Part shown: positions 8,967 to 54,444 of the stretch, piece after piece | Layout: every line of letters starts with the position of its first letter | Numbering within the stretch: the first letter of the stretch is position 1 | Virus record (IMG/VR): IMGVR_UViG_3300032265_001645 | Location: 1 to 57,279 of that record | DNA from: a virus | DNA: 57,279 nt | Strand: one strand, 5' to 3' | Position numbers and translations under genes: made by a program | Notes under the pieces: generated by a model | Seen by the model: only the letters and a program-made list of their open reading frames with translations | Database searches by the model: none | Told to the model about the DNA's origin: nothing

Positions 8967-10598
8967 ATAAAAGCACTGCGCCTACTCGCAGCATTATCCG
9001 TCGCACTATTCGCAGCATTCTATCCAGTACTAATTGTATCAACAGCATTTGGTGATGAGCCAACACTTTCTGCACCCACAAATCTTCAAGCTGAAGTAAG
9101 TGATGGCGCAGTTAAACTTGAATGGGAACCGCCAAAAACGGGAGATGTAGGTAGATACGCTATCTTCTTTATGTGCCCAACCAGTACTGATGGGTGTGGA
9201 AATGGGTACGCAATTTCTACCGGAAATGGTGGAGATCAACAATCTTTAAAGACAAAGATGACAATACCTGTAGAGCTATTGAACTCTATAGTTCCAAATG
9301 CAACTACTTGGTCTTTTGAAATTCGTGCAGACAATGATGTAACACAGGTTTATTCTGCATTTTCAAATTTAGCTACGATTAGTCTTGGCCGTCCAGTTCT
9401 TCCCAAACCAACTCAAATCCCCACTCCCACGCCAAGTCCTCAGCCAACTCAATCACCAACTCTAACAAGTGATCCGAGTCCTTCTGCAAGCGCTTCACCC
9501 GAGGCATCGCCGACAAGTAGCCCAACACCAAGCCCGAGCCCAAGCCCAGAACCAACACAGCAACCAACACCATCTCCTAGTCCTTCCGCTTCAGTAGAAC
9601 CCACACCGCAAACAACACCGTCCCCCACACCGGGGCCAGTACAACCACCGGTATTAGATACCACAACAGTGACCACTTCTCCATCAGATAATCCTACTCC
9701 TGCTCCTCAACCTACAACTCCACCAGTGGACCCTGCCCCAACAAGTCCTGCTCCTGAGCCTGCTCCACGGCCGGAGCCTGTAGTTCAGCCACCTGCTGTA
9801 GAACCTGCGCCGCAACCTGCGCCAGAGCCTGAGCCTGCCCCTGCGCTAGAACCTCAGCCCGAGCCCGCTCCCGCTCCCGATCCAGCCCCTGCACCAGACC
9901 CAGCTCCTGCACCTGCCCCAGACCCACAACCTGAGCCAGCTCCTGGGCCCGAGCCAGCGCCAGACCCAGCACCCGCATCTGATCCTCAGCCTGCTCCCGC
10001 ACCAGATCCTGCGCCTGCGCCAGAGCCTGCACCAGAACCTGCACCTGCTCCCGAACCTTTACCTGCTCCTGATCCTGCACCTGAACCTCCTGTTGTAGAT
10101 GGGCTAATACCTAATAGCCCTAACCAATTACCAGAGGATACACCTAAAGAAGCGCCAAACGAACTGCTGATACCGCACATACAGGAAGATAAACCCGGTG
10201 TAGAAAACGGTGGTATTGAATTCTTCGGTACTAAAAGTCAACCGCAGGTAATTCAAGAGGATGGAACTTTGACCCCACCACCGCCACCACCTGGTTCAGG
10301 CTTACCTATTCCACCGGATGCAATTACAATTACGGACACATTTATAGGACAACCAGGCGGAACAACATTTAACGCACCAGACGTTGCCGTACCAATCGTA
10401 GAAACACCTGTAGAACTACCAGCAGCGCTTGACGCTATCCCTGGTGCAGGTGCTGCGATTCAATCACTAAACCATGCGTATGTTGCTTTGGCAAACATAG
10501 GCAATGACATGTCCCCAGTTACACGTAAAAAAGCTAAAAAGATTCTAGTAGCCACAATTGTTGCCTCTGGAATTTCACAACTAAGAAGGAGATTCTAA
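8967..10598 (+). CDS. Secreted FN3 + proline-rich repeat protein, apparent ATA start
   Basis: About 543 residues. A conventional ATG occurs only at 9171, in the middle of a fibronectin type III-like domain. The frame is open upstream to a TAG at 8964-8966, and the first codon after it is ATA (8967), six bases behind AAGGAG. Read from there, the product opens with KALRLLAALSVALFAAF, a signal-peptide-like segment ending near STAFG, then an FN3-like domain (about 35-130) with NLQAEV, VKLEWEPP and YAIFF. Residues about 130-400 are Pro/Ala/Glu/Ser repeats, and the C-terminus is basic with a short hydrophobic run. It is probably exported and wall-spanning. ATA may be a rare start codon or a changed ATG. 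Confidence 0.65.
   Translation: MKALRLLAALSVALFAAFYPVLIVSTAFGDEPTLSAPTNLQAEVSDGAVKLEWEPPKTGDVGRYAIFFMCPTSTDGCGNGYAISTGNGGDQQSLKTKMTIPVELLNSIVPNATTWSFEIRADNDVTQVYSAFSNLATISLGRPVLPKPTQIPTPTPSPQPTQSPTLTSDPSPSASASPEASPTSSPTPSPSPSPEPTQQPTPSPSPSASVEPTPQTTPSPTPGPVQPPVLDTTTVTTSPSDNPTPAPQPTTPPVDPAPTSPAPEPAPRPEPVVQPPAVEPAPQPAPEPEPAPALEPQPEPAPAPDPAPAPDPAPAPAPDPQPEPAPGPEPAPDPAPASDPQPAPAPDPAPAPEPAPEPAPAPEPLPAPDPAPEPPVVDGLIPNSPNQLPEDTPKEAPNELLIPHIQEDKPGVENGGIEFFGTKSQPQVIQEDGTLTPPPPPPGSGLPIPPDAITITDTFIGQPGGTTFNAPDVAVPIVETPVELPAALDAIPGAGAAIQSLNHAYVALANIGNDMSPVTRKKAKKILVATIVASGISQLRRRF
9412..10092 (+). repeat. Low-complexity Pro-rich coding repeats (PSP, PEP, PAP, PDP)
   Basis: First a PTPSP/PSPSP section, then a long PAPDP/PEPAP section, both encoded by degenerate CCN-GCN-CCN-GAN codons. 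Such rods keep domains apart on the cell surface. The varied codons argue against recent simple slippage. The opposite-strand frames here are artefacts. Confidence 0.85.
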
Positions 10599-34286: not shown

Positions 34287-35834
34287 CTATAGATTAATTC
34301 CGCCGCTAATATTAATAACTAAATTAGCTGCTAGTAGGTATGGGATTTGATTTGAATTCAATGCAATAGAAACAGCAGTTGCTGTTGCATCTGTATTACA
34401 TTGAACTATATCTACTGAAGCAACCCCATCAATATTTGACAGAGTAGCAATTACAGAAGATAAGGGTATTGATCGCCCAAATTTATTATTTGTGTAAGAA
34501 AATAATCCTGTAGATGAATCAAGCATGGATTTAAATACTGCTAACTTAACGACGTTTTGACGATAACTTGCATTAATTGCTACATTCACAGTTAAATAAA
34601 TAGGCACATAAGCAGGAGGCAAAACGTTTACAGTTACCCCTACTTGAACTTTATCTGCAAGATATGCTCTAACTTTTGCTGCAAGATTATTCCAAGAATT
34701 AGTAGCAACTCCTGAAACTAAACCTGGGGTAGTAGTTCCATCGTCTTGAGGCTGTGTATACACATTAATTAAACTATAAACCCCAGCCGCAGCGTTTGCA
34801 CGCCCAACTCCATTAACTTGTTCAGAAAGGTATTTATAGTCTAAAAGAGTAACTGCTCTACGACGAGAGATGATCGCAGCTTTAATTTTTTTTCTTAATT
34901 GAGAGACGTTATCCGCATTTGCCCCACCAACTGCCGCAGAAGGGTTAGTTACTGTAAACCAAGTTACAGCTTCAGGGTCAATGTTTCCTGGAATAAATGA
35001 TAGTTCAGAAATAGCTCCTGAGATAATATTTCCATATGTTCCAACGCTAGTTTTATAAAGTGCGCTAATAAGCTGCCCACTTGGTGGGATAGATCCATTA
35101 ACACCGTCACCAAATATAACTGTAAGTGTAGCGTCAGCATTTTGTTGAGTTGTAAAAACAAGGTCAGTTGGGCCATATTCTAAAAGAGTATCTACGTATT
35201 GCCATGGGGCAAATGCAATGCCTTGTCCAACATAAACAGTAAGAGAATCATCAATAATGTCAGTATCAAGAATTTTAATCTGTTGAGAAGACGACCCATC
35301 AGATGTGCCAATGTTTGATGGCAATGCTTGATGATAAACAGCATCAATATAATCTTCACGATCTGTATTTACAGTTTTACCTTCTGTACAAGTAATCGTA
35401 ATAGTTTGGTTTGGTTGAATAGCTGTATATCCGGCATTTGTTTCAAAGTAAGCTTGAGAATAAGGCCCGTAAGTTAATGGGGCCATAACTTGAGTTCCAG
35501 AAGGAAGGTCAATAGTCTGAGAGCTAATATTAGTAAATTGAACGTCTACAGATGAAGGAATGGGTCCTGAAGCTTTAAATCCATATAAAGCCGCAAATCC
35601 TAAAAGGGTGTCTGTTTGAACGGCGGTACTAACTGTAGTTTCATTTGCCACACGGTCGGTGTAATATGACATGATGTCTCCCATCATGGCAAATGCTTCA
35701 AGAAGAACGTTTCCTAAATCTGAGGGGTCACTGGGTACCCAGTTTTTGCCGGTCGTGTAGCTAACTAAAGAGATCATGTCAGCTTTAAGCGACTCGTAGT
35801 CTCTTGATGTGTAATCGATTTGAATTTCGCTCAT
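34287..35834 (-). CDS. Baseplate J-like protein
   Basis: 515 residues. The N-terminus DYTSRDYESLKADMISLV, then PSDLGNVLLEAFAMMGDIMS and TDTLLGFAALYG, matches the gpJ/T4 gp6 family. The middle shows the KIKAAIISRRRAVTLLDYKYL segment and the C-terminus the typical DKVQVGVTVNVLPPAYVPIYLTV strand series. Forms the inner wedge ring of the contractile-tail baseplate. It is adjacent to gp25 with one-base overlap. Confidence 0.9.
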   Translation of the reverse strand: MSEIQIDYTSRDYESLKADMISLVSYTTGKNWVPSDPSDLGNVLLEAFAMMGDIMSYYTDRVANETTVSTAVQTDTLLGFAALYGFKASGPIPSSVDVQFTNISSQTIDLPSGTQVMAPLTYGPYSQAYFETNAGYTAIQPNQTITITCTEGKTVNTDREDYIDAVYHQALPSNIGTSDGSSSQQIKILDTDIIDDSLTVYVGQGIAFAPWQYVDTLLEYGPTDLVFTTQQNADATLTVIFGDGVNGSIPPSGQLISALYKTSVGTYGNIISGAISELSFIPGNIDPEAVTWFTVTNPSAAVGGANADNVSQLRKKIKAAIISRRRAVTLLDYKYLSEQVNGVGRANAAAGVYSLINVYTQPQDDGTTTPGLVSGVATNSWNNLAAKVRAYLADKVQVGVTVNVLPPAYVPIYLTVNVAINASYRQNVVKLAVFKSMLDSSTGLFSYTNNKFGRSIPLSSVIATLSNIDGVASVDIVQCNTDATATAVSIALNSNQIPYLLAANLVINISGGINL

Positions 35835-38492: not shown

Positions 38493-40252
38493 TAGGGATT
38501 ACCTCCTGTAGTTCCCCCACCAGCAGTTGTAGACGTTCCGCCAACAAATTTTCCAGAGTTTGCAACAAGGGCGCCTCCAGAAGCCGCAGCAAAACCAGCA
38601 ATGCCGGACGCGTCGTCTTTTCCTGAGCTTGCTACGTTGAAGATTGCTGGGTAACGAGTAAATGTAATATCAATTGTGGTTAAAATAGGAATCATATCTA
38701 AAGTAAACATGGCATGATTTACGTTTATATTTGTTATGGAACCAAATAATTTCATGTTATCGTTTATATATAGCCACACAGGTACAGTTTTTAAAATACC
38801 TATATCAGAACTACTACCGTTATAGCTAAGCATTGGGTTTTTACCCAAACTTTCATCTGGATCACCATTACAAACTCTATATAGGTACTCAAGGTCATAT
38901 TCTGTACCGCGATTTAGTATGCCTTCAATTTCAGGGGAACTTAAAGGTGGAGTATAACCTTTAGTTTTGTTTGTTCTTAATTGAGTCATGTCGGCAATTC
39001 TATTTAAATATAGTTGAAAAGTTACTTGTATATTGCCGGCAAGTAAAGCCGCCGGATCATTACTTCCTAATGTCCAGTCAACAGAAGTATTACCTTGAAT
39101 TGAGTATTGAATAGTTGTAGGGTTATATGTGTATCTAAAGCCCCATAAAGATTTTGGATCTTTTGTGTTTACAAGCGAAGCAGTATTTGGATCTTGAATA
39201 ATTCTTCCAAGTTTTCCAACAAATTGGCTGGGATTGACTGAAACTCTTTTATATTGACCTGAAATTCCCGTAGGAATTTGAGAATTGTTGCCAAGAGGCG
39301 TGTCAATTGCTGTTAACACATCAATACCTAAACCTCTAGAGTACCCCCTAGTTACCATGTGGCTCTGAGGATTATATCTGGCACTATCTAGGCTTGGAGA
39401 AGCAACACTTTGAACTTTTGGGGCTGTTCCCTGCCCTAATACCGGACTTTTTGTAGAAGTATTTTTTTGACCATTTACAGCGTCAATTAAAATATTATTT
39501 GCGGCAGCAAGACCAGTTTTATCTTTGCCTACAATTGTTGTTTTACTTGTTATTTGGGTACCTTTACTACCGGGATTCCAATATAACGCTGTATAAGTAG
39601 TACCTTTTCCAGGTACGATTGTTTTTTTAATTCCAACATACCATTTGTTTACTGGGTCATATTTAATTCCGGAATAGTCGTAGTTTTGTCCTGGCGCAAC
39701 GTCTGTATTTAAAGCATTAATAAGACCTTGAGGAACGGCAGGAATAGTGGAAGCTTTTGTAATTTTAACTGATTGGATTCCATTAGGTGGGGATGATAGC
39801 TTGACGCCGTTGGATTGCATACCTACACCAAGAGCATCCCATGAGGCTTGAGTTATTGCTTGAAAAGGTATGTCTGAATCATCTGATTTTAACTTAATAT
39901 TAAAAGTGGGGTGGACAAGGCCAGTACCTTTAGCTGTAAGCAAATTTATATTGTCAATATTTCCACTAAATTCAGCTACAAAATATTGATTGTTAACGGT
40001 TTGAACTTGATTAAAGTATCTACTCCATGTAGAAGATAAATTAACCGACATTTGATCCCCGGTAAGTTGAGTACTTGTTGCAGTCACACTGTCATAAGAG
40101 TATCCTTTTACAACCCAACCAAATTTAGTTGGATTTGTAGAACCAGATATAAGTTGAGTTGCGTTTACGTTAACTGATTGAGTTGTAACCGTAGAGTAAG
40201 TTCCGTTTAAAGACTGTTGTAAAAAGATGTTAAAATAGTATGTGGTAGCCAT
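38492..40252 (-). CDS. Tail/baseplate protein downstream of the tape measure
   Basis: 586 residues. Mostly beta; the C-terminal third has WGFRYTYNPTTIQYS, FQLYLNRIADM and VPVWLYINDNMKLFGSITNI, VNHAMFTLDMIPILTTIDIT, like the proteins that sit between tape measure and LysM genes in actinobacterial myoviruses. The last 40 residues are Gly/Ala/Ser-rich. It probably forms the tube-baseplate junction (gp48/gp54-like role). The function is inferred from order. Confidence 0.6.
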   Translation of the reverse strand: MATTYYFNIFLQQSLNGTYSTVTTQSVNVNATQLISGSTNPTKFGWVVKGYSYDSVTATSTQLTGDQMSVNLSSTWSRYFNQVQTVNNQYFVAEFSGNIDNINLLTAKGTGLVHPTFNIKLKSDDSDIPFQAITQASWDALGVGMQSNGVKLSSPPNGIQSVKITKASTIPAVPQGLINALNTDVAPGQNYDYSGIKYDPVNKWYVGIKKTIVPGKGTTYTALYWNPGSKGTQITSKTTIVGKDKTGLAAANNILIDAVNGQKNTSTKSPVLGQGTAPKVQSVASPSLDSARYNPQSHMVTRGYSRGLGIDVLTAIDTPLGNNSQIPTGISGQYKRVSVNPSQFVGKLGRIIQDPNTASLVNTKDPKSLWGFRYTYNPTTIQYSIQGNTSVDWTLGSNDPAALLAGNIQVTFQLYLNRIADMTQLRTNKTKGYTPPLSSPEIEGILNRGTEYDLEYLYRVCNGDPDESLGKNPMLSYNGSSSDIGILKTVPVWLYINDNMKLFGSITNINVNHAMFTLDMIPILTTIDITFTRYPAIFNVASSGKDDASGIAGFAAASGGALVANSGKFVGGTSTTAGGGTTGGNP

Positions 40253-43164
40253 TAGTAAGTCATCACCACGCTTTTAGCTAAACCATGCTCAAGGCGCTTA
40301 GCAAAGTGCTGGAACATTTGCTCAGCTTCAGCTATACTTGATCGTTCAATGTGAACTTTCATTTCTACCTTTACCTGTGTTATGTGGTGCTTAGAGTTAG
40401 GATTGTTTGTGTTGATGTCCATAGGCATTCCACTGCCACCACCTTGGCCGGCTTCAGCACGATGAGCATCATCGATGTACTTAAGGAAAGATCCGTTTTG
40501 GTATGTAGCCCACGGCTTCCAGTTAGTTCCGCCTTTAGAAATAGTGAAAGCAGATTTAGCATTAAAGTCGGCATCAGTTAAGCGCTTGCCATCACGGTAA
40601 GGTTCGTTGTAGTCTTGCCAATGCTTTAAGGAACGAATTTGAAACATACCAAAACTTGGGCCCCATTTTTTAGTTTGAATACCAACGTCACCTGGACGAT
40701 CCATACGGCCACCAGATTCAGCCATAGCCACAGCAAAAGCTGTGTCTAACGCTTTGCCTGAGAACCCAGCTCTGCGAAGAACTTCAATCATTCCCTTACG
40801 ACTTCCTCCAGCCATGCGACTAGATAATTCGTCTTTGCCAGCGTTATAAGAGTTATTAATTAAAGAGTCTTGGTTGTGGTTTAAGTACATAGATCTTTTT
40901 TTAGATCCAAACCAATTCTCAATATCTGAATATCCTACAGACTTACCCCTATTTAAATCACCATTTAAGATTGAGGTAAGGCTGGCGCTACTAAGAGTTC
41001 CTATGGTTTTTCCAGCCATACTTTGAGTATTATGAAAAGGATTAGTTATTTCATTATGCGTATTTCCACCCGTGAGGAATCCGGCAACATTCTTAGCCAT
41101 ATTGATTCCGTCTTTAAATAAGTTGCCTAAGAAACCGCCAACTTTTCCAAAAAAACTTTGAGGGTTTACAGATTTATTTCCCCTTAAAACTTCTGCGTGA
41201 AGGTGGGGCCCAGTAGAGTTACCCGCACCAGCTGCGCCCTTAAGACCGCCAGATTTACCAATTACTTGACCGCGCTTAACAGTTTGACCCTGCTTTACAG
41301 AGATCTGGCTAAGGTGGGCATAACGGGTTGATACAGAACCGTGGTTTATGAGAACATAGTTACCCCAACCAGCTTTTTCATTTCCAACTTTAGTTACAAC
41401 ACCGTCAGCCATAGCTTGTACTGGAGTGCCTACTCGTGTTGCGTAATCAATGCCGGGGTGAAACCCCGGTTTAACTCCGTGTCCTCCAGGACGATTACCA
41501 TAAGGTGATGAAATAGGTGTTCCTCTGGGAACAGGCATACCCAACCCACCAGAAGATCCAGACGAGGTGCCGGTATTATTGTTTCCACCGCTACCATCGG
41601 AGCTGCCGCCCTTACCGCCAAATAACTGTGAAACAATTCCGTACCCAGTTCCCAATGTAGCGCCAATAGCTTCTGAGATACCAGTTTCACCCAATACCGG
41701 AATTAATGCTCCTATTGCAGTGCCAGTTAACGCATCTTTACCCACATTTGCTGCAAAGTTTCCAGCTTTAACAATTCCGCTATTTTGATGATTTTTAACT
41801 CCGGGTATAGAGTTAATAAGGGCTTGAGCAATGCTTGCAACTAATGCTCCACCACCAAGTTTTCCTGCACGACCTAGTTTAAAGTTTTTGGCACCTTTAG
41901 CTGCGTTTGCGGCAACACCCGTAGCCGCCGCTCCTTCTAACGCTGTTGCGCCTGAAGTAGCAAAACGACCAACACCAAGTACCTTACCCATCATTGCGGT
42001 TTGTAAAATTTCGCCACCCATACCACTAATCATTGAGCCGATGCCAGAAAGAGTTCCGCCCATATTTCCAGCTTGTGGGAACGTCTGAAGAGCGCCTTTA
42101 AGACTCATAAGTCCATATGTAACTGGACTTAATGTACTAGCAAGGTCAGCAAAGGCTCTGTTAAGTCCACCAACGGTATTTAAAGAAACGTTATATCCAT
42201 TTACTAAACCGGCTTGAGTTGCGGCAAGGGCCATGTTTTCACCTTTTGCAGCATTAAAATTAGATCTGATTGGGCTGTTACCCTCAACACCCATTATATT
42301 TAAAGCTTGGTTTGAGCTTTGTAGATCTTTCTTTGAAAGATTACTTCCCTTGCGGGCGCGAGTAATAACCGCCATAGCAATTGTATTCATAAGGGCGGTG
42401 TCGCCGCCAGTAAGCATTAATAGTGTTTGATAGCCCTTTGAGTTTGGGTTGAGTAACATTGCGGCTTGTTGTTCAGTAACTTTACGCCCACCGTATAGAA
42501 CTGTATATACTGAGTTGACAATCTGGTTAATAGGTAATAAGTTACCGTTATTATCGCGGATACGAACGCCTCCACGAAGGAACCCCATACCATTAATTCC
42601 GGCAAGGCTTGAGGCCACCTGCTCGTTGGTTCCACCAGTCATGGCGCTAAGACCGCCAAGGCTTGACATAATGTTCTTTGAGCTCAAGGAGTTGGCTGAG
42701 TAACCACCTTGATAAAAGAGATTAGCGGCTGCTGCAGTAGGTCCACCCGCGCTTGTAGCGCCCTGTACAAGGCGATTAGACTGACCAATTACTTGATTAG
42801 CCTTCATTCCACTAAGACCCGCTATAGAGTCCGCATACATCCTTTGAGCGACCGCTGACATGGTATTTGGAGCCATGCTCATGCCCATGGAACCGGCTAT
42901 TGCCATTCCACCCGCAACTTTTTGACCGGTGCTTAAAGATCCAAGCATCGACCTTAGAGGCATAGTTCCTAAACCAAGTTTGCCACCACCTACTTGATTT
43001 CCAGTATAAGCTCCAGCGGCACCCTCGGCATCTTTTTTAATGCCTGTACTTTCAACACGCATTTGCTTAATGACTTTAAGAGCTTTTTCAAACTCACGCT
43101 CAAAAGTCGGGCCAATGCCGTCTGCGTTACTCTCTTCTGGAGAGATAAGATTTTGAAGTGCCAA
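40252..43164 (-). CDS. Tape measure protein with M23 peptidase and lytic-transglycosylase-like domains
   Basis: 970 residues from TTG 43164; a TAA lies two codons before it and no ATG follows for 35 codons. A long helical Ala/Gly/Met/Ser-rich body with hydrophobic stretches sets tail length and ejects first. Near residue 565 is HPGIDYA, with HLHAEV near 655, the zinc site of M23 endopeptidases. Near 820-840 AMAESGG and GMFQI fit a lysozyme/SLT-like fold. Two wall-cutting domains in one tape measure suit passage through a thick actinobacterial wall. Confidence 0.85.
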   Translation of the reverse strand: MALQNLISPEESNADGIGPTFEREFEKALKVIKQMRVESTGIKKDAEGAAGAYTGNQVGGGKLGLGTMPLRSMLGSLSTGQKVAGGMAIAGSMGMSMAPNTMSAVAQRMYADSIAGLSGMKANQVIGQSNRLVQGATSAGGPTAAAANLFYQGGYSANSLSSKNIMSSLGGLSAMTGGTNEQVASSLAGINGMGFLRGGVRIRDNNGNLLPINQIVNSVYTVLYGGRKVTEQQAAMLLNPNSKGYQTLLMLTGGDTALMNTIAMAVITRARKGSNLSKKDLQSSNQALNIMGVEGNSPIRSNFNAAKGENMALAATQAGLVNGYNVSLNTVGGLNRAFADLASTLSPVTYGLMSLKGALQTFPQAGNMGGTLSGIGSMISGMGGEILQTAMMGKVLGVGRFATSGATALEGAAATGVAANAAKGAKNFKLGRAGKLGGGALVASIAQALINSIPGVKNHQNSGIVKAGNFAANVGKDALTGTAIGALIPVLGETGISEAIGATLGTGYGIVSQLFGGKGGSSDGSGGNNNTGTSSGSSGGLGMPVPRGTPISSPYGNRPGGHGVKPGFHPGIDYATRVGTPVQAMADGVVTKVGNEKAGWGNYVLINHGSVSTRYAHLSQISVKQGQTVKRGQVIGKSGGLKGAAGAGNSTGPHLHAEVLRGNKSVNPQSFFGKVGGFLGNLFKDGINMAKNVAGFLTGGNTHNEITNPFHNTQSMAGKTIGTLSSASLTSILNGDLNRGKSVGYSDIENWFGSKKRSMYLNHNQDSLINNSYNAGKDELSSRMAGGSRKGMIEVLRRAGFSGKALDTAFAVAMAESGGRMDRPGDVGIQTKKWGPSFGMFQIRSLKHWQDYNEPYRDGKRLTDADFNAKSAFTISKGGTNWKPWATYQNGSFLKYIDDAHRAEAGQGGGSGMPMDINTNNPNSKHHITQVKVEMKVHIERSSIAEAEQMFQHFAKRLEHGLAKSVVMTY

Positions 43165-44146: not shown

Positions 44147-44764
44147 TTAGTTTGTGAAGAGTGCTGCGCTTGTTGTATAGTCGCTTGCCATGATGACATC
44201 AAAACCTTCGTGAACGAGGGTCATTTCTTCAACCATGAGTGTGCTTTGTCCTGCATCTAAGTTGCTGTAACCAAGGTTAGCAATCCAAGCATTATACACT
44301 CGGAAGCGCATAGCTACGTGCTGCCCTTGATCTGTAGCTGAAGTTGCAGCTCCAGCTCCGGTAGCTCCAGCTGGGTTTGGATGGCTTAGAACAGCAATGT
44401 CAACGGTGCAACGGAAGTCCGCACCAACGCCTGCTGTAGCGCCTGGAGTTAAGATTGAGAATAAACGCTTCATCCACGCTTGATTCTGCTTTTGTCCTAG
44501 CATTTGTCCATGAGACAAAGTAATAGGGGTGAAAGACGATTGACCAGGGATCTGGTGCACGTTAGTGTTATATCCACCTTCGCGGTACGCAATAGGCTCT
44601 GTTGAGACGCTTAGTCCCGATAGAGATACAAAACCCATTTGGTTCCACTTAGCGACATCCCACTTACCATCGTCGGTATTAGGTGTGATTGTTACCAAGA
44701 ATTTAAACGTACGGATTGGATCCGTAGTTAAACCTCTCTTGATGTTATCAATTGATAGTGCCAT
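44147..44764 (-). CDS. T4 gp19-like tail tube protein
   Basis: 205 residues. DPIRTFKFLVTITPN, GFVSLSGLSVSTEPIAYREGG and HQIPGQSSFTPITLSHGQML are the signature of the gp19-like tube family; the C-terminal beta half includes FRVYNAWIANLGYSNLDAGQ and TLVHEGFDVI. It forms hexameric rings that build the inner tube, surrounded by the sheath encoded just upstream. Confidence 0.9.
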   Translation of the reverse strand: MALSIDNIKRGLTTDPIRTFKFLVTITPNTDDGKWDVAKWNQMGFVSLSGLSVSTEPIAYREGGYNTNVHQIPGQSSFTPITLSHGQMLGQKQNQAWMKRLFSILTPGATAGVGADFRCTVDIAVLSHPNPAGATGAGAATSATDQGQHVAMRFRVYNAWIANLGYSNLDAGQSTLMVEEMTLVHEGFDVIMASDYTTSAALFTN

Positions 44765-44777
44765 GATTCATATCTCC

Positions 44778-46361
44778 TTATGCCGTAGCGTTTCCAGTGA
44801 GTTGACCGATCTTGATGATCACAAATTCGGCCGGATATTCAAGAGCAACGCCAATTTCAATATTAACTTTACCGCTCATAATGTCAGCCATAGAGTTATT
44901 GCTTGCGTCGCATCGTACGTAATAAGCTTCAGTTGGCTTGTTTCCACGCAAACCACCTTGCTGCCAGTAGCTACCCAAGAAGGTACCAATAGCAACGCCA
45001 ATACGATTCCATAAATTAGCATCATTGTTTTCAAAGATAGCAAAAGAGGTTAAATCTTTTACTTCTTTTTCAATGTATGTAAGAGAACGACGTACGTTGA
45101 TGTAACGTCCGCCAGCTGTAGCTTTTAGTGTACGTCCACCCATGATGCAGATACCAGCACCAGGAACCTGGCGGATAACGTTAACTGGATTTGAAGAGGT
45201 ATTAAGAGCATCAAGCTCAGCATTTGTAAACTGGTGATCTGTAGCTACTGCTAAGTTCACTCGGTTTGTTAATCCTGCTGGAGTCTTGAATACGCCACGA
45301 GATGCGTCTGTAGCAAGGTACTGACCAACTACAGAAGATCCTGGGGCTTGTAGACGAGTTACTCCCGGCGTAGCCTTTAGAGTATCTGGAATCAAAAGCC
45401 ATGGGTAGTAAACAGCACAAACACCACCATCAGATGAGGCGGCAAAAGCGGTGTCTACATCGTTTGCGTATGTCTGAACTTCTGAAGCTGAAAGTCCCTG
45501 AGGAGTATCCAGCACAGCAAAACCATCTCCACGTGCTTGGCAATATGTGACAAGGTCGCTAAGAATTCCAATGGAATTGGTACGATCTGTTCCACTACCT
45601 GTAGCGGTGTTGTAAAGGTATGGCGCATCAGCGTTGTACATTACAAGAGGGTTTTGAACTGGATCAAAGCTTAGCAAAGCTGTGTTGTAGTTAGTACGTG
45701 TTGGTGTTGATCCGTCCACACCTGCACCTGTTGCACCTAGTGCGTAGAGTGTTGCTCCACTTGTAGGCATATTTGTTGGCGCTGCAGAAGCTGAGTTCTG
45801 ATCAAATACGCCAATAAATGAAGACTGGGTGTTAATTACAGATACAAAGTATCGTGGATCTATTTTGTCCATGCTCAAATCTGTATATGTCTCAAGTAAG
45901 TTTGAGGTTGCATTTCCAGCAATAGTTGGTGAACCATAGACTGAAATACCAAACTTAGTTGTGCTACCAGCAGCATTTACAGAGACCGCTAGGGAGTTGC
46001 CCCAAGCGCCCTTGCTTGCAGCTTGTACAAGGATAGTGTTGAGGTGTGAAGATGAAGAGTCAGTAAGCATTACTGAAGCAGCTGCAGCTCCTGAACCCGT
46101 TACGCGTTGAACGTAAAGGTCGTGGCCGCCATTAGCATAAAAGTTATAGGCTGCCCAAGTTGTTGGGTAGGCATCTTGAAGTCCTCCAAAAATCTTGACA
46201 AATTGCTGCCAAGAAGAGACAAGAACTGGAACGTTCGTAGGACCCTTAGCCAAAGCACCGACAAATGCACCAATAGCATTGGTATTGTCAGAGAGGTCAA
46301 TCGTCTGCGGAAGCTCTACTTCTTGGATAAAGACGCCTGGTCTACTATAAGTTGTAGCCAT
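44778..46361 (-). CDS. Contractile tail sheath protein
   Basis: 527 residues. The N-terminal YSRPGVFIQEVELPQTIDLS then IGAFVGALAKGPTNVPVLVSS and AYNFYANGGHDLYVQRV are typical of sheath subunits. The C-terminal part RYINVRRSLTYIEKEVKD, LWNRIGVAIGTFLGSYW and INIEIGVALEYPAEFVI-like strands completes the contractile domain. It establishes that the phage has a contractile tail. Confidence 0.95.
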   Translation of the reverse strand: MATTYSRPGVFIQEVELPQTIDLSDNTNAIGAFVGALAKGPTNVPVLVSSWQQFVKIFGGLQDAYPTTWAAYNFYANGGHDLYVQRVTGSGAAAASVMLTDSSSSHLNTILVQAASKGAWGNSLAVSVNAAGSTTKFGISVYGSPTIAGNATSNLLETYTDLSMDKIDPRYFVSVINTQSSFIGVFDQNSASAAPTNMPTSGATLYALGATGAGVDGSTPTRTNYNTALLSFDPVQNPLVMYNADAPYLYNTATGSGTDRTNSIGILSDLVTYCQARGDGFAVLDTPQGLSASEVQTYANDVDTAFAASSDGGVCAVYYPWLLIPDTLKATPGVTRLQAPGSSVVGQYLATDASRGVFKTPAGLTNRVNLAVATDHQFTNAELDALNTSSNPVNVIRQVPGAGICIMGGRTLKATAGGRYINVRRSLTYIEKEVKDLTSFAIFENNDANLWNRIGVAIGTFLGSYWQQGGLRGNKPTEAYYVRCDASNNSMADIMSGKVNIEIGVALEYPAEFVIIKIGQLTGNATA

Positions 46362-48372: not shown

Positions 48373-48948
48373 CTAATTGACCGGCTCATCTGTGGCATTC
48401 CAGTTTGCAAAGTACTGGAACTGGCTGTCATTGACCATTTCTTCAGAGTTGACCTGGACGCAATCGACAGCCAAAATGGTGTATCGGTTGTTTACAAGTC
48501 CCATGCCCTGAATACGGTCCGGGCTAAATACTTCGTTTCTAAATACAATACGATCTCTCAAGAAGTGGTCTGGGTTAGTCAAGATATCACTGAAATGGCG
48601 AGAGGTGTCCGCTTCCATACCATAAAGGTTTGTAGCATGCTCAATGACGTCCATGTTCATAGTTATACGCAAGATGTCGGTGTTGTAGAAACCGCGGTCA
48701 TTCTGCATAGAAGCACCCTGATAAACAACCGCTTTAATTACTGGGATAGTCAAAGGGTCGTACCACACACGTCCACCAGCTGAACTGCCCACATCGTAAA
48801 TAAGGTCTACAACAGTAGCCACTGAGTTATAGACATACCATTGAACAGAGTTTCCAACTGTACGGACAAGCTCAGAAGAGGTGCCCGCAATAATTGAGGA
48901 CCGCTCATTGGGCATATTAAACCGCCCAATTCGACGTTCTCCACGCAT
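48373..48948 (-). CDS. Structural (head-tail completion-like) protein
   Basis: 191 residues behind AAGGAG. SSIIAGTSSELVRTVGNSVQ, VYNSVATVVDLIYDVGSSAG, GRVWYDPLTIPVIKAVV then DIEHATNLYG-like helices and FLRDRIVFRNEVFSPDRIQG suggest a compact virion protein, as often found with head-tail connector genes. It is encoded with the neck and tail genes. The exact role is not certain. Confidence 0.5.
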   Translation of the reverse strand: MRGERRIGRFNMPNERSSIIAGTSSELVRTVGNSVQWYVYNSVATVVDLIYDVGSSAGGRVWYDPLTIPVIKAVVYQGASMQNDRGFYNTDILRITMNMDVIEHATNLYGMEADTSRHFSDILTNPDHFLRDRIVFRNEVFSPDRIQGMGLVNNRYTILAVDCVQVNSEEMVNDSQFQYFANWNATDEPVN

Positions 48949-48982: not shown

Positions 48983-49192
48983 TTAGCCTTCTTCTCTGCC
49001 CCACTTAACCCTGTTCCAAACTCGCTCATGGTAGTAGTACAGCGCAGTTTTTGTTAAGACCTCAAACCCCGCAATTGAAGCGGCGGTTATTGGTTTATGG
49101 GTAATCAATAAAGATAAAACAAAAGTATCGAACGTACCAATTACTCTCCAAGTAATGGCTTTTATCCCAGACCTTTGTTTTGTTACCTTCAC
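48983..49192 (-). CDS. DUF2061-like small membrane protein
   Basis: 69 residues. GIKAITWRVIGTFDTFVLSL, LITHKPITAASIAGFEVLTK and YYYHERVWNRVKWGRE match the DUF2061 pattern: R-x-K-x-x-x-W-R, two short hydrophobic helices, then H-E-R-x-W-x-x-x-x-W-G. Function of the family is unknown. It overlaps the APS-kinase fusion gene by 4 nt. Confidence 0.75.
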   Translation of the reverse strand: MKVTKQRSGIKAITWRVIGTFDTFVLSLLITHKPITAASIAGFEVLTKTALYYYHERVWNRVKWGREEG

Positions 49193-49935
49193 AGCCCCAT
49201 TTCCCTGCGCCTCTGAGTAGCTGATATAGCGTGTATATCTGCTCCCAGGTCTACTTGCTCAATCCTGTACCCCACATCACGGCCATATACAATATTGGTA
49301 ATGTTGGGGACTTTCATAATAAATGATCCGGGTACTCCGGAAACAATATGCTCAGCAACTTGCTGATACGGTAACGGATCTTTTTCCGACGTTCCATGCG
49401 TATCTCTGACCGCAATAAGAACTTGATCTGTTCTCTCATGCGCTTTCTCCAATAACGCTTGATGGCCTTCATGCCAAGGTTGATACCTACCAAGAAGAAG
49501 AGTAGTAGGGGCCTTCCAGTCATGAAGATTAGAAGTAAATATAATATTGTTTACGTGAGCTTTTGAGTCAAAGGTTTCAAACTTATAGTCAAAGACTGCG
49601 GGGGTTTCCCACATCTTATTGGTATCTTCAAAACGACCTTCTTTAATGGTGTCCATCCAAACCAGGATATCGGATTTACCAAATGCCTCACGAGTTGTTT
49701 GTGTTGGGCATATAAAGTCAACTACTACATCTAAGCCCTGTCCAGACAATAGGCGGGCCATCTCTCCCATACGGCGGGCATGTTCTTTGCGATCTTCAGG
49801 AGTAAACCCAAGATCAGAGTTAATAGTAGAGCGTACGTAATCGGCGTTTAAATGTACTGCGTTAATACGGCCGGCTAGTTCTGTAGCCAGGGTTGTTTTA
49901 CCTGACCCAGGCAACCCAATAATCTGAATGATCAT
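49189..49935 (-). CDS. APS kinase-like domain fused to a nucleotidylyltransferase domain
   Basis: 248 residues. The N-terminal half has the P-loop GLPGSGKT (7-14), then LNADYVRSTINSDLGF and EDRKEHARRMGEMA, and VVDFICPTQTTREAF, the APS-kinase order; APS kinase makes PAPS from APS and ATP. From about 145 a second domain shows LLLGRYQPWHEGHQALLEKA with HxGH (155-158), and ISATQRRR (237-244), the NadM/NadR-type nucleotidylyltransferase marks. Such fusions occur in other phages. The kinase could supply PAPS to the sulfotransferase encoded about 2 kb downstream. The transferase substrate is unknown. Stop and start overlap both neighbours. Confidence 0.75.
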   Translation of the reverse strand: MIIQIIGLPGSGKTTLATELAGRINAVHLNADYVRSTINSDLGFTPEDRKEHARRMGEMARLLSGQGLDVVVDFICPTQTTREAFGKSDILVWMDTIKEGRFEDTNKMWETPAVFDYKFETFDSKAHVNNIIFTSNLHDWKAPTTLLLGRYQPWHEGHQALLEKAHERTDQVLIAVRDTHGTSEKDPLPYQQVAEHIVSGVPGSFIMKVPNITNIVYGRDVGYRIEQVDLGADIHAISATQRRREMGL

Positions 49936-50492
49936 TGAAACTTACTCCAAACTTCTTCAGTAATTTCTTTTCTAATCACTGATAGGTATGAAGGGCCTTT
50001 AGTAATGTACCAGTGTTCTGGCTCAACATAGTGAAAGAATATCATGGTAACTTTATTATTAAGCGGATTCGTAAACTCTTCCCGCCAGTGCTCTTGGTCG
50101 TTACCGTAATAGGCTAGTGCCTCATTCTCCTGCAACGTATAGGGTTTTCCCTCTACCCAAAGCTCCCAGGGTGTAACCTGAGACACGCACATGTCTAGTG
50201 TATAAGTACAGGCGTTATCATCTTTGTGGCTCGTCAACCTTGCTTTAGGGGTTTTATACATAGCGCACAAAGAATATGACGGAACTAGTGTTGGGCTATT
50301 AAAAGCCTCTCTAGCTACAGGCAATAACTGTTTGGCAATGTCGTCTAAAAATCCATCTTTACCTAGTAAATATCTTCCAAAACCATCAGACCATTCTAGG
50401 GTAGCTTTATCTCTTGAGTCTAAATAGCTACGTAAAGCGGTATAGGTATCTTCATCAAGTATGTCTTTAATTAGTTTAGGGTCTGGTCTCAT
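49932..50492 (-). CDS. 2-oxoglutarate/Fe(II) oxygenase-like protein (first)
   Basis: 186 residues from ATG 50492, which has GGTGGG upstream. The segment RLTSHKDDNACTYTLDMCVS (H89, D91), then LQENEALAYYGNDQEHWREE (H135) and VTMIFFHYVE fits the double-stranded beta-helix of 2OG-Fe(II) dioxygenases (HxD...H). Such enzymes hydroxylate Pro, Lys, other residues or nucleobases. Compared with the second oxygenase it is shorter in the C-terminal strands. It probably acts with its neighbour, since the genes overlap by 4 nt. Confidence 0.65.
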   Translation of the reverse strand: MRPDPKLIKDILDEDTYTALRSYLDSRDKATLEWSDGFGRYLLGKDGFLDDIAKQLLPVAREAFNSPTLVPSYSLCAMYKTPKARLTSHKDDNACTYTLDMCVSQVTPWELWVEGKPYTLQENEALAYYGNDQEHWREEFTNPLNNKVTMIFFHYVEPEHWYITKGPSYLSVIRKEITEEVWSKFQ

Positions 50493-51100
50493 ATGTCCCA
50501 CCAACCAACTACAGCATATCTTGTTCCAGATACTACGGGGTGCACAGTATGTGTATACACATAGTTAGACGGAAACATAATCATTTCATTTGCCTGAGGT
50601 TTGATCTTTAGACCAAACTTGGTAAACTCAATTTCTCCACCCTCATAATCATCATTAAGATAAAAGCTCATAGATACTGTTCTTGGGTAAACAGTTGAGT
50701 CGTCAAAATGGTTTACGAAGTGCCCATCTTTTCCGTATTTAAGGATTTGCCACCCTTCCGAAACCTTCCACTGCTGTGCAGCATATAAGTCTAGGTAATG
50801 GTTGATAGGGCCATAAAGATTGTCGTTTAAAAAGTTATGGACTGATGATGTCCCCAAAGAAAACACATTAACAAGGTTTGGATCCAAGTCAAATTTTGGC
50901 AAAGAAATGACGTTGCAGTCTCTCACAGCTCTATTCTTTTTTGGTGTTGGATCGTTAGCGCTATCAGACTGCGTCCCAGAATTCCAAGATAATTGACCAA
51001 TTTCAACCAAAGATTCTAAGTCAGTTATAAAACCTTTTGGGTCTTCCAAGACGTCTGTGTAGCGTACGATTCCTGGAGCAAGATCTTCAAACCTGTACAT
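50489..51100 (-). CDS. 2-oxoglutarate/Fe(II) oxygenase, prolyl-4-hydroxylase-like (second)
   Basis: 203 residues. HFDDST gives H131 and D133; VHPVVSGTRYAVVGWW gives the distal His (H187) and the 2OG-binding Arg (R194). The EGGEIEFTKFG and KPQANEMIMFPS strands are typical of prolyl 4-hydroxylase-like enzymes. All metal and cosubstrate ligands seem present. It overlaps the first oxygenase. The natural target may be a Pro-rich fibre protein such as that at 52183-52842. Confidence 0.8.
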   Translation of the reverse strand: MYRFEDLAPGIVRYTDVLEDPKGFITDLESLVEIGQLSWNSGTQSDSANDPTPKKNRAVRDCNVISLPKFDLDPNLVNVFSLGTSSVHNFLNDNLYGPINHYLDLYAAQQWKVSEGWQILKYGKDGHFVNHFDDSTVYPRTVSMSFYLNDDYEGGEIEFTKFGLKIKPQANEMIMFPSNYVYTHTVHPVVSGTRYAVVGWWDI

Positions 51101-51350
51101 CTATTGCTCCCCACTTTCCAACTGGACACTCTGCATTAGCCATTTTTGTTTTTAGCTTCATTACGCACCCACATTTTTTGCATTGGGTGGTTAGCTTAAT
51201 GTACTCTGGACATTGTTTACAGATAGAAAATCTAGCCTCAGAATCCTCTTCTGGTACCCACTGAGTATTAGGATTTACTACGTCCCACGGCCTAGTATCG
51301 CCAAGAGTTTTTTTATACCTTTGTAGAACTGTTAGTTTTTCATCTGACAT
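51087..51350 (-). CDS. Zinc-ribbon protein in the modification block
   Basis: 87 residues from ATG 51350, with AGGGG seven bases upstream. ICKQCPEYIKLTTQCKKCGC and a later AECPVGKW place four to six Cys in a zinc ribbon. Similar proteins often accompany 2OG oxygenase and sulfotransferase-type genes in phages. It overlaps both neighbours by 11-14 nt. Probably an adaptor. Confidence 0.65.
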   Translation of the reverse strand: MSDEKLTVLQRYKKTLGDTRPWDVVNPNTQWVPEEDSEARFSICKQCPEYIKLTTQCKKCGCVMKLKTKMANAECPVGKWGAIDVQV

Positions 51351-52146
51351 TTGAGTGCCCCTCACCATTATATACGTACTCGTACAACTCAAAATCAAGA
51401 AGGTTTAGCTCTAAGAACCTTTCTACCTCGCTATCAGAAAGCTTTTCTTTAAGCATTCCGGTAGTAAAAGTTCCATCTTTTAACTTAACTTCTGACTGAT
51501 TAACCTTAAATATTGGAGTGCTTAAGGTTTTAAATCTTAGATCTGGATAGTGTGTATTGTACCACCCAACAAGCCTAGATATAAAAACGTTTATATTATT
51601 TGTAGTGTTAACGATCTCAAAGCTGTCTACACAGGATTTGACCAGGTTAAAGTCTATTTCTATATCTTTTAAGTACCATTGTTTTGACCGTGTCAAGTAG
51701 TCAGACTCTTCGTCTGTTGGTATGTCCTTAAACATATTAGTCTCTGGCTCAGAGCAGATAAACTTTGATTGTATATTTCTGTGTGGTATATACACTGGGT
51801 CGTCAAATAGGTAGTGCTTTAAACGATCTTCCATAGAGTCAAGGTTTGTGTACTCAGGCCTAGAAAACAAAACCCTATCATAGATATACAAAAAGTTACT
51901 GATTGCTCTATCTAAAGGGTCCCTAACAACTGTAGCAACTGAAAGGTTTTCTAGCTTTGAGATTGGGTACCTACCCAAATGGCCTTGAATAAAGGCATAC
52001 TCAGAAGAAACATCGCTGTGAGGAGGTGGTGACGGTGGATATTTTGGCAGGTTGTTAGTGATCAAAAACTGTGCAAAGTTCACGCCTACAGTCATACCAG
52101 CAGTTTTGGGTATGTGTAAAAAGTACAGCTGCTTATTTATCTCCAT
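51340..52146 (-). CDS. Sulfotransferase
   Basis: 268 residues from ATG 52146 behind AGGA. FLHIPKTAGMTV (9-20) is the 5'-phosphosulfate loop and TVVRDPLDRAISNF (72-85) the 3'-phosphate motif with Arg and Ser, so the enzyme uses PAPS as donor. The rest is helical with a GHLGRY segment near 55-60. It moves a sulfate group onto a hydroxyl of sugar or protein. The APS-kinase-like domain is encoded in the same block. The C-terminal region is diverged, so the acceptor cannot be predicted. Confidence 0.8.
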   Translation of the reverse strand: MEINKQLYFLHIPKTAGMTVGVNFAQFLITNNLPKYPPSPPPHSDVSSEYAFIQGHLGRYPISKLENLSVATVVRDPLDRAISNFLYIYDRVLFSRPEYTNLDSMEDRLKHYLFDDPVYIPHRNIQSKFICSEPETNMFKDIPTDEESDYLTRSKQWYLKDIEIDFNLVKSCVDSFEIVNTTNNINVFISRLVGWYNTHYPDLRFKTLSTPIFKVNQSEVKLKDGTFTTGMLKEKLSDSEVERFLELNLLDFELYEYVYNGEGHSNVR

Positions 52147-52182
52147 AGGATTTCCTTCTTGTGCGCTCACTTAATAAGTATA

Positions 52183-52842
52183 TCATGTAGAAGTATATCC
52201 CTGAAAATTGCCGCAGTTATCGTAGACGCAGACATTGTATCCGCAAGGCACGAAGTGAACGTTTCCATTGTATACGCATGGTGCTGGACCAGGACTAGGA
52301 CTAGGAGTAGGAGTAGGGGTTGGCTGCGGGGTAGGGGTAGGTACGGGAGAAGGTACGTTAATAGAAGGTACGCAATAACCAAACACAGGTAGTAGAGGTA
52401 CTGCACCGTCATAAATTTGAAAGTTTACGCACTGCCCTGCAAACTGACCCGCAAAAATTGTTACGGAGTTGATGTCAAAGCTATAGCTTAAATATGAACC
52501 ATTTCCTGTAACATTTGTAATTGCTTGCGGAAAGTGTCCAGACCAAGTAAATGAAGTACTGCCATTGTTTCCTTGAAGCCCTCCCAGATAGCCCAGTTGA
52601 ACTGGATCTGGTGTAGGAGTAGGAGTAGGGGTTGGAGTCGGCGTTGGTGTAGGAGTCGGCGTTGGTGTAGGAGTAGGCGTTGGTGTAGGAGTCGGTGTAG
52701 GAGTAGATACAGAAAAAAATGATCTCCAAGTTCCATTTACCTTAATAAACGAGGCGGAAGAAGTTCTCCAAGCACCATTAACTTTAACGTAAGGATTAGA
52801 GGCAGTTCTCCAAGCACCACTTACTTTTATACTCTCGGGCAT
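52183..52842 (-). CDS. Tail-fibre-like protein with VKVNGAWR repeats and Pro-Thr rod
   Basis: 219 residues. The N-terminus repeats IKVSGAWRTAS, VKVNGAWRTSS and IKVNGTWRS, a unit common in phage fibre and baseplate-attached proteins. Then comes a PT run (about 47-79), a beta domain (80-160), another Pro/Thr/Ser part and a Cys-rich end with six Cys. It probably protrudes from the virion. A Pro-rich rod next to two prolyl-hydroxylase-like genes makes it the natural candidate substrate. Confidence 0.7.
   Translation of the reverse strand: MPESIKVSGAWRTASNPYVKVNGAWRTSSASFIKVNGTWRSFFSVSTPTPTPTPTPTPTPTPTPTPTPTPTPTPTPTPDPVQLGYLGGLQGNNGSTSFTWSGHFPQAITNVTGNGSYLSYSFDINSVTIFAGQFAGQCVNFQIYDGAVPLLPVFGYCVPSINVPSPVPTPTPQPTPTPTPSPSPGPAPCVYNGNVHFVPCGYNVCVYDNCGNFQGYTST
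52612..52707 (-). repeat. Pro-Thr tandem repeats in coding sequence
   Basis: About 16 copies of a 6-base unit encoding Pro-Thr (ACNCCN on the minus strand, with variable third bases). Likely hypervariable in copy number between relatives through slippage. Other reading frames of the repeat give false Leu/Tyr-rich frames. Confidence 0.85.
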
Positions 52843-53039
52843 CAGCTATACTGAACCCAAATATCTCCATCTGCCCCATCGCCGGATGTTGGTGCGGAAG
52901 TGGAGGCGTAGATATTTCTAAGCGCGCCAACAGTTACAGTTGTAGGTGAAGTAACCTTTGTAGCTGTTGTATTAAGAATTATATTTGAATTCTCACGACC
53001 AGCGCCCTCGCTGGATTCTGGGAAGGTTCTTTTAGACAT
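52842..53039 (-). CDS. 65-residue fibre-associated protein
   Basis: Ser/Thr/Ala-rich. The C-terminus YASTSAPTSGDGADGDIWVQYS resembles the end of phage tail-fibre or capsid-decorating proteins (GDGADGDIWVQ motif). Overlaps neighbours by one base each, so translation is coupled along the fibre genes. Confidence 0.6.
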   Translation of the reverse strand: MSKRTFPESSEGAGRENSNIILNTTATKVTSPTTVTVGALRNIYASTSAPTSGDGADGDIWVQYS

Positions 53040-53383
53040 TATACTAACTGACTTCCAAATGCGTGGAATGTTAAGGAGCTAGATGTACCAGACGCTACAT
53101 AAACTGTGTCATAAGCGCCAAGGGTTAAGCCAATAGTAAGTGTCTGCGTAGTATTAGCTGTAATAGGCATTTGATAAATAAGTGCATTTGCTGTAGATGC
53201 TGCGGCAGGTGAAGAGCCGGTAGCCTTGCATACGTATACTGTAGCTGTTGCTGAAGAGCTTGTGGTGTTGCAAATAGCGATAGTAGACATTACGGTCTGA
53301 GTAGCCGCAGGTGTGGCGTATAGTGTTGCGTTAGATCCTGCAGGTGTAGCTTGACCTAAAATTAGATAGCTTGCGGTGGCCAT
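53039..53383 (-). CDS. Virion-surface beta protein
   Basis: 114 residues, Thr/Ala/Ser-rich, with strands such as TATVYVCKATG and TLTIGLTLGAYDTVYVASGT. A compact beta sandwich fits a decoration or fibre-tip protein. One base overlap on either side. No catalytic motif. Confidence 0.55.
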   Translation of the reverse strand: MATASYLILGQATPAGSNATLYATPAATQTVMSTIAICNTTSSSATATVYVCKATGSSPAAASTANALIYQMPITANTTQTLTIGLTLGAYDTVYVASGTSSSLTFHAFGSQLV

Positions 53384-54444
53384 TATTGCTCCTGTAACTT
53401 TGCGGTGTAATGACTAATATTAACGGCTAAGCGTTCATTAGTCGGGTCTAAACTATAAGCAATTTTACCCTGTTCTAGAGCAATTTCATACTTCCCCAGG
53501 TTATAAGAGGATATGGCTAAATAATCGTTTGGTAAAGATCCCCAAGCCCATGGCTCACAGAAGTAGTCTAAACTTTTGGTCTCTATATCTAGAGCTTTCT
53601 TAGCCCACTCTCTACACATAACCCAGTCTTCTTTGTTGTAATAATACTCGGTAAGCTTTACCGCACACTCTCTACGAATAGGGTCTTCTTGATATCCCTT
53701 TGTCCACCAAATAACTGCGTTATCTGGATCGCACTCTCCAAGGTATCTGTAGGAAGCTGCGCGTTGAGCTTTCCACCAGGCCTTAGGTAATGAGAGGTGG
53801 CGCTTAAATTCTTCCGCAGCATCTTCATATGATCTGTAAAAGTAAAGTTCACGTGCGTAGTAAAAAGCGCACCTATCATCATCTGGGTTTTCTTTAGCGG
53901 CCTCTTGTAGTAGGGGCAAGTACTGCCCACGAGATTTATCATCATCGGGATGGTGCTCGATCTGTAGATCTACCCATCCGGTAGTCTCTTCGATTCTGTA
54001 GGGTTCCGGCATTTCATGTATTGGATATACCCAACGGTAACCGTTGCGAGCGTGGATTCTAAAACCGCTGAACTGCATGCCCGGTGATCCGTCAGGATTC
54101 CAGCTTGTAGTAAATAGGTATCGTGGACGAGTCCATTTGTTTGTGTTGGCAACCTCTAAATGTTGGCGCCAACCAGGAACTAGAGTTTCATCTAGATCAA
54201 GAGCAATGCAATAATCAATATCACTGGGTATAAGAGACAGGCTAGCATTGCGAGCATCATCAAACCTCCAAGGTTTTACACTAATTGTGTGGCACACAAT
54301 GCCTAGTGACTTAGCTAACTCTACCGTATTATCTGTGGATCCGGTATCAGCTATAAGGAGATAGTCAGCTTCTATAGCTGATTCATACCAACGTTCAATA
54401 AACTGCTCTTCATTCAGAGCAATTGCGTATACTGCTACTTTCAT
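53383..54444 (-). CDS. GT2-family glycosyltransferase with TPR-like C-terminal repeats
   Basis: 353 residues behind GGGGG. VAVYAIALNEEQFIERWYES, LLIADTGSTDNT and CIALDLDETL give the GT-A fold with the metal-binding acidic motif (D-L-D). The C-terminal half has helical repeats (CAFYYARELYFYRSYEDAAE, WWTKGYQEDPIRRECA) that resemble TPR units for protein binding. It transfers a sugar to an acceptor, possibly a virion protein. Lies between two fibre-like genes. Confidence 0.8.
   Translation of the reverse strand: MKVAVYAIALNEEQFIERWYESAIEADYLLIADTGSTDNTVELAKSLGIVCHTISVKPWRFDDARNASLSLIPSDIDYCIALDLDETLVPGWRQHLEVANTNKWTRPRYLFTTSWNPDGSPGMQFSGFRIHARNGYRWVYPIHEMPEPYRIEETTGWVDLQIEHHPDDDKSRGQYLPLLQEAAKENPDDDRCAFYYARELYFYRSYEDAAEEFKRHLSLPKAWWKAQRAASYRYLGECDPDNAVIWWTKGYQEDPIRRECAVKLTEYYYNKEDWVMCREWAKKALDIETKSLDYFCEPWAWGSLPNDYLAISSYNLGKYEIALEQGKIAYSLDPTNERLAVNISHYTAKLQEQ

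Follow-up and report, generated by a model that had tools for sequence, protein, structure and literature searches.

Phage-encoded modification of structural proteins has a described precedent in the mycobacteriophages, whose virions are glycosylated by phage enzymes at the C-termini of the capsid and tail tube proteins (Freeman et al. 2023, as cited in PMC12619734). In the Skp1 pathway of protists, the founding enzyme adds N-acetylglucosamine (GlcNAc) to a hydroxyproline of Skp1 and is related to the initiator of mucin-type glycosylation (PMC8724618). Here we consider a block of genes in a freshwater virus of bacteria, known from a virus record in IMG/VR that is 57,279 bases long; this whole stretch was analysed and is called the window. 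The block (52842-49932) encodes a variable tail protein, a sulfotransferase (ST), a Cys4 protein (ZN) and two 2-oxoglutarate (2OG)-Fe(II) oxygenases (OX1 and OX2). Comparison of sequences makes it probable that the enzymes encoded beside the phage tail protein modify that protein, and that the block is a substrate-plus-enzymes cassette. A sequence-only reading of the window had proposed a pathway of hydroxylation, glycosylation and sulfation in this region; the genes that it named all exist, on the minus strand and with overlaps or short gaps, and its idea of hydroxylating and sulfating enzymes aimed at a phage tail protein gains support, as ST tracks a C-terminal tag of that protein and the oxygenases appear to track its proline tracts.

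The tail protein gene (52183..52842, minus strand) lies just upstream of ST and had not been singled out by that reading. Its product, the proposed substrate, has 219 residues and carries N-terminal repeats of the form [YF]IKV.G.W[KR], a first (PT)n tract (52603..52704), a second Pro-rich tract, VPSPVPTPTPQPTPTPTPSPSPGPAP (52279..52356), and the C-terminal tag, CVYNGNVHFVPCGYNVCVYDNCGNFQGYTST (52186..52278), all read from the minus strand. The first tract holds the proposed hydroxylation sites, and the tag is the proposed recognition or acceptor site of ST. In alignment, the tag is a conserved segment of about 31 residues (CVYNG..-C..N.C.Y..CG.F.GYTST) that stays constant among relatives, whereas the linkers vary (PTPT, APTPV, PPVYYN, TQAT); the tagged proteins are 89 to 925 residues long, several of them cut by contig ends. 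When 2.9 million viral contigs were scanned with the tag alignment as query and ST left out of it, 11 contigs were recovered and ST was the next gene in all 11. The same order holds at every other tag-bearing locus examined, including L001, a fragment of the window itself read from the other strand (L-numbers label this fragment and the related loci and contigs compared). In L107 and L109 a second tag subtype, with F.GCTGT at its end, is followed by a Cys4 gene and a pair of ST genes; in L110 and L115, two ST genes come after (PPYF)n proteins. Phage fibre-like proteins with extended (PPFF)n or (PPYF)n tracts were also noted beside sulfotransferase pairs, OX1-type genes or both (L107:4688-5608, L109, L110:3827-4543, L115:8133-8861, L041:1-189). 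The names internalin and clumping factor, returned by NCBIfam for the tail protein, were dismissed as low-complexity matches to the PT tract.

The tail sheath was chosen as a neutral anchor for counting associations, because loci are then not selected by the genes under test. Within 51 deduplicated sheath-anchored contigs we compared the slot, that is, the homologous stretch bounded on one side by the variable tail protein, a homologue of which stands at the same position in these relatives, and on the other by a conserved gene (48373-48948 in the window). Pro tracts were present in 13 of 21 slots with OX and in none of 30 without (Fisher 4e-7); for complete proteins only, the counts are 10/15 and 0/22 (9e-6). 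The tag was found in all four slots with ST and in none of the 47 without. ZN occurs in slots with and without OX. Many contigs carry the block of tail protein, ST, ZN and OX, and for several of them no other similarity to the window could be detected in the stretches compared; the sequence-only reading had held that absence of its gene combination from relatives would speak against a pathway, and the combination is found there.

Natural exchange at this position is seen in the closest relative, L250, whose sheath is 95% identical to that of the window. Here the tail protein carries a PASTA domain, and its C-terminal part is unrelated and bears no tag. The window-type ST is missing; another sulfotransferase-like gene is present, as are two OX1-type genes other than that of the window. 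Tag and ST have been replaced jointly at this position. L253, L255 and L256 have neither the tag nor a Pro tract, ST or OX; the first two, with Cys-rich ends, have only a Cys4 gene and a small unknown gene, and L256 has no enzymes at the variable position. Elsewhere, the genes after a poly-Pro protein are ZN, OX1 and one of the PF11397 GlcNAc-transferase type (L302, L306, L308), or (PT)n occurs with ZN and OX2 (L333, L362). We take PF11397 to be the family of the Skp1 hydroxyproline GlcNAc-transferase. It is matched in L104 (2e-50), L103 (1.5e-40) and L005 (1e-23), and stands together with a prolyl 4-hydroxylase (P4H)-type enzyme in L103, L104, L306 and L308, where PF11397 genes adjoin OX1 and poly-Pro or PT proteins; the scanned genes of the window in the neighbourhood of the cassette include none. 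Neither ST nor the poly-Pro block of L306 had a match in 50,697 cultured-phage records.

A tryptophan halogenase accompanies ZN and OX2 at the variable position in L337 (45-1622; PF04820, 9e-94) and L365 (3945-5522), which suggests halogenation as another option of the cassette; in Actinomycetia phage DSL-LC01 (L002:20116-21687), a gene annotated as tryptophan halogenase has a glycosyltransferase beside it and collagen-like genes nearby. Four tail proteins at the variable position (L250:4784-6166, L302:3-635, L326:2518-4479, L329:2752-5106) have, by eye, a Hint/intein-like C-terminal domain (CI.G.T......, C-terminal HN), and their self-processing is possible; a Pfam search of the L250 protein returned PASTA and no Hint/intein domain.

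The enzyme assignments rest on several kinds of evidence. ST (51340..52170, minus strand; likely ATG start at about 52146) matches Sulfotransfer_2 (PF03567) narrowly, at 22.8 and 22.9 bits for a cut-off of 22.0; 9 of the 11 ST homologues scanned match this family too. Both 3'-phosphoadenosine-5'-phosphosulfate (PAPS) motifs noted in the sequence-only reading are kept in the alignment, namely HIPK (HIP near-invariant, with K) and R.PL.R..S. ST is a putative PAPS-dependent sulfotransferase, predicted to transfer sulfate to an acceptor; a PDB profile search with it gave nothing informative. OX1 (50489..51100, minus strand) matches 2OG-FeII_Oxy_3 (PF13640; E 3.7e-17) and has an invariant iron site (H131, D133, H184), with R or K, the basic residue for 2OG, ten residues past H184. 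In a PDB profile search its nearest solved structures were a bacterial P4H (5.8e-12) and next P3H1, PHD2 and LH3, so that prolyl and lysyl hydroxylases of proteins are the best matches of its profile. We assign it as a P4H-type 2OG oxygenase, with activity on peptidyl-proline predicted from these nearest solved relatives. OX2 (49932..50504, minus strand) has no Pfam match, its PDB profile search was uninformative and hhalign found no relation to OX1; it was therefore identified through structure prediction. The model (pLDDT 90) has the double-stranded beta-helix of 2OG oxygenases and resembles the P4H of P. putida (Foldseek E 5.6e-7), with Z of about 15-17 to several 2OG oxygenases, and H88xD90 and H134 are invariant in the alignment. 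By its modelled fold and these residues, OX2 is a divergent member of the 2OG oxygenase superfamily, and the two oxygenases of the sequence-only reading are both borne out. We did not adopt the labels that PHROG gives these two oxygenases ('ferrochelatase', 'DNA endonuclease'). ZN (51087..51398, minus strand; phrog_13558, weak DUF6171) is a zinc-ribbon-like protein with four conserved Cys residues; like the tail-protein tag and the DUF2061 gene described below, it had not been listed in that reading.

The sequences show the gene content, the enzyme families, their conserved active-site residues and the association of the tag with ST and of Pro tracts with OX; the mechanism goes further. In the mechanism that we propose, the tail protein would occupy one fixed position of the structural operon, have an exchangeable C-terminal part and be produced along with the other structural genes. 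Where this part is Pro-rich, one or two prolyl-hydroxylase-type 2OG oxygenases (OX1, OX2 or both) would hydroxylate prolines of the tract, and in some relatives a PF11397 GlcNAc-transferase might then glycosylate the hydroxyproline or threonine. The tag, with its CG.F.GYTST end, would recruit ST, and sulfate from PAPS would pass to the candidate acceptors, either tyrosines that are invariant in the tag or a sugar close by. Assembly into the tail would then place the modified protein in the virion, where the likely benefit would be altered adhesion or stability, for instance through an effect on adsorption or on the fibre itself. More tentatively, this could amount to a new phage adaptation, in which exchangeable adhesin segments travel with dedicated enzymes, tail proteins become hydroxyproline-glycosylated and sulfated in the manner of extensins or mucins, and an encoded C-terminal tag recruits a sulfotransferase.

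Several observations weigh against modification of the neighbouring tail protein. Near relatives dominate the counts and inflate the p-values; on the sheath tree there are 4-5 independent contrasts, about 3.5 of them concordant and none opposite, which are too few for significance. The Pro-tract pattern was defined after a first look and changed once later. By this pattern, eight OX-bearing slots have no Pro tract, mostly those of one clade (L329-like) plus L250, although in two of the eight (L320, L354) Pro repeats are present that are shorter or differently spaced. In L019 and L103 the tag is present, and PT repeats are few or missing. Finally, Pfam places ST in a carbohydrate-type sulfotransferase family.

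This last point also favours an alternative that we consider unlikely but that fares best among the rivals, namely that the enzymes act on a capsule, on the host surface or on a secondary metabolite, for instance to counter superinfection, and that the variable fibre region is merely their location. Halogenases and other transferases also occur in the variable region, and cyanophage clusters of 2OG oxygenases and a halogenase have been so interpreted by others (PMC7824862). Such a role, however, does not predict that ST should track a 31-residue tag, nor that OX should track Pro tracts, in a neighbouring structural protein.

The fuller scheme of the sequence-only reading seems improbable. In it, the gene here called KINNT makes PAPS, ST uses this PAPS, and a GT2 glycosyltransferase and the oxygenases work one after another on a single substrate. 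KINNT (49189..49935, minus strand) combines, as judged from Pfam, structure and neighbours, an adenosine-5'-phosphosulfate (APS)-kinase-like P-loop kinase domain with an NMNAT/cytidylyltransferase-like domain (CTP_transf_like, PF01467) that had gone unmentioned; it is associated with the cassette and perhaps lies outside it. The APS-kinase-like assignment stands as far as homology goes: residues 2-84 only match APS_kinase (PF01583; E 8.5e-17), and the N-terminal domain has the APS kinase fold with its P-loop (PDB 2yvu, 9e-13), at a Z of about 14-15 that is tied with a sugar kinase (VIA-align; C-terminal half barely covered). The making of PAPS is its weak part, as KINNT falls far under the APS kinase equivalog cut-off (TIGR00455; 61.3 vs 138.7 bits) and, on our own reading, the substrate-side half of the kinase domain appears shortened. 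KINNT is also below the NadR cut-off (TIGR01526; 28.7 vs 341 bits), the domain start alone being matched.

Its neighbours point the same way. A small membrane protein gene, DUF2061 (48983..49192, minus strand; PF09834, 8.2e-20), is the partner of KINNT and adjoins 64 of 69 viral KINNT genes, whereas ST lies within 5 kb of only 9 of the 69, and there are homologues in bacteria and cultured phages with no adjoining sulfotransferase; most homologues have none in the vicinity. Given these counts, the cut-off score and the nucleotidyltransferase fusion, the statement that the locus holds a sulfate donor as well as its user is not supported. KINNT homologues also occur in SAR11, SAR86 and other chromosomes, often with kinase and nucleotidyltransferase as adjoining separate genes, and in nine SAR11/SAR86 chromosomal contexts no sulfate-activation genes were recognised. 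NAD salvage of the NadR type (PMC9503650) is a fair alternative role and fits because a KINNT homologue adjoins a NADAR gene in the cultured Stenotrophomonas phage Bhz60. In favour of the scheme, KINNT accompanies sulfotransferases in the window's own clade, being present in 5/5 sheath-anchored slots with any ST and in 1/50 without, so PAPS supply by KINNT is possible but unproven from these associations; the host may be the supplier instead. GT2 (53383..54444, minus strand; TPR-like repeats; phrog_13126, E 1.9e-108) is an upstream neighbour not tied to the cassette, and was dropped as a member since 12 of 22 relatives without OX also carry it. Successive action on a single residue is not indicated either, each enzyme tracking a different segment of the tail protein.

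Least probable is hitch-hiking, in which the variable position takes up cargo and a few mosaic blocks, inherited in common, give rise to the associations with no functional tie between their genes. Although near relatives dominate the counts and independent contrasts are few, the block stays intact in otherwise different phages, at ST identities of about 43-72% and despite diverging linker repeats, and tag and ST were exchanged jointly in L250.

KINNT is common in viral contigs, with at least 586 confirmed relatives, and the KINNT-DUF2061 pair (at the above positions in the window; L170-L249) is very common in phages. Poly-Pro/Glu proteins (PEPTPEP) near other KINNT genes are of a different type, are not near ST and were set aside. 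SGNH-type hydrolase/acyltransferase-like genes, recognised by eye (FAGCS.T.G..LP), lie downstream of the cassette or near KINNT in L003, L004, L006, L008 and L068; the L006 copy has no Pfam match.

The structural region of the window is of the contractile-tail type, with tail sheath (44778-46361) and tail tube (44147-44764) assigned by homology to annotated sheath genes and by position, a 970-residue protein with M23 peptidase and lysozyme-like domains (40252-43164) and a baseplate gene (34287-35834). A replication region with a UvsX-like recombinase, a DNA polymerase and helicases is also present. An actinobacterial freshwater host is likely, because among cultured phages those of Streptomyces come closest in the sheath (about 35% identity) and the GT2 gene has a similar counterpart in DSL-LC01. 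Two open reading frames lie on the strand opposite to nearly every other long one: a queuine tRNA-ribosyltransferase-like gene (88-1551; phrog_887, 3e-49) and a 475-residue plus-strand frame without any family match (9171-10598).

If enzymes encoded beside them hydroxylate, glycosylate and sulfate the tail proteins of common freshwater phages, several consequences would follow. The usual account of phage host range looks to the receptor-binding protein sequence alone; this sequence would then fail to predict binding by itself, and tail proteins produced recombinantly in the absence of the enzymes might not behave properly. It would imply sulfation of a protein of a bacterial virus and phages that glycosylate hydroxyproline, as well as a short tag directing a sulfotransferase to its protein, which could serve as a laboratory tool. 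The matched-set pattern also offers a simple sequence rule for finding further substrate-enzyme pairs.

In the open-access literature we found no description of a phage tail protein that bears a dedicated tag and is both proline-hydroxylated and sulfated. Phage virion glycosylation is already known, and there is a substantial chance that the hydroxylation and sulfation cassette is of a new kind if its chemistry is confirmed. The mycobacteriophage system is alike in that phage-encoded enzymes act on the phage's own structural proteins, as proposed here; it differs in being glycosylation only, with no hydroxylase, sulfotransferase, tag or exchangeable substrate-enzyme set. Cyanophage genomes likewise cluster 2OG oxygenases with an amino-acid halogenase, but the passage concerned proposes capsule decoration or a secondary metabolite and not a neighbouring tail protein as substrate (PMC7824862). 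The viral collagen prolyl hydroxylase (vCPH) of Paramecium bursaria chlorella virus 1 (5c5t/5c5u) is a virus-encoded P4H fold, yet from a eukaryotic virus, and the comparison implies no matched substrate gene or sulfotransferase. The Skp1 pathway shares the order of a P4H-type oxygenase followed by a PF11397 GlcNAc-transferase, both of which are present in the four relatives named above; it differs in that the proposed substrate here is a Pro-rich phage protein and that a sulfotransferase is added, PF11397 being absent from the window genes scanned. With plant extensins and the hydroxyproline-glycosylated, Pro-rich wall proteins (PMC8724618), the tail proteins share repetitive Pro-rich segments, the PPVYYN and PPYF of some relatives being extensin-like in resemblance only; no homology is claimed, and here the proteins are viral and come with a tag and a sulfotransferase.

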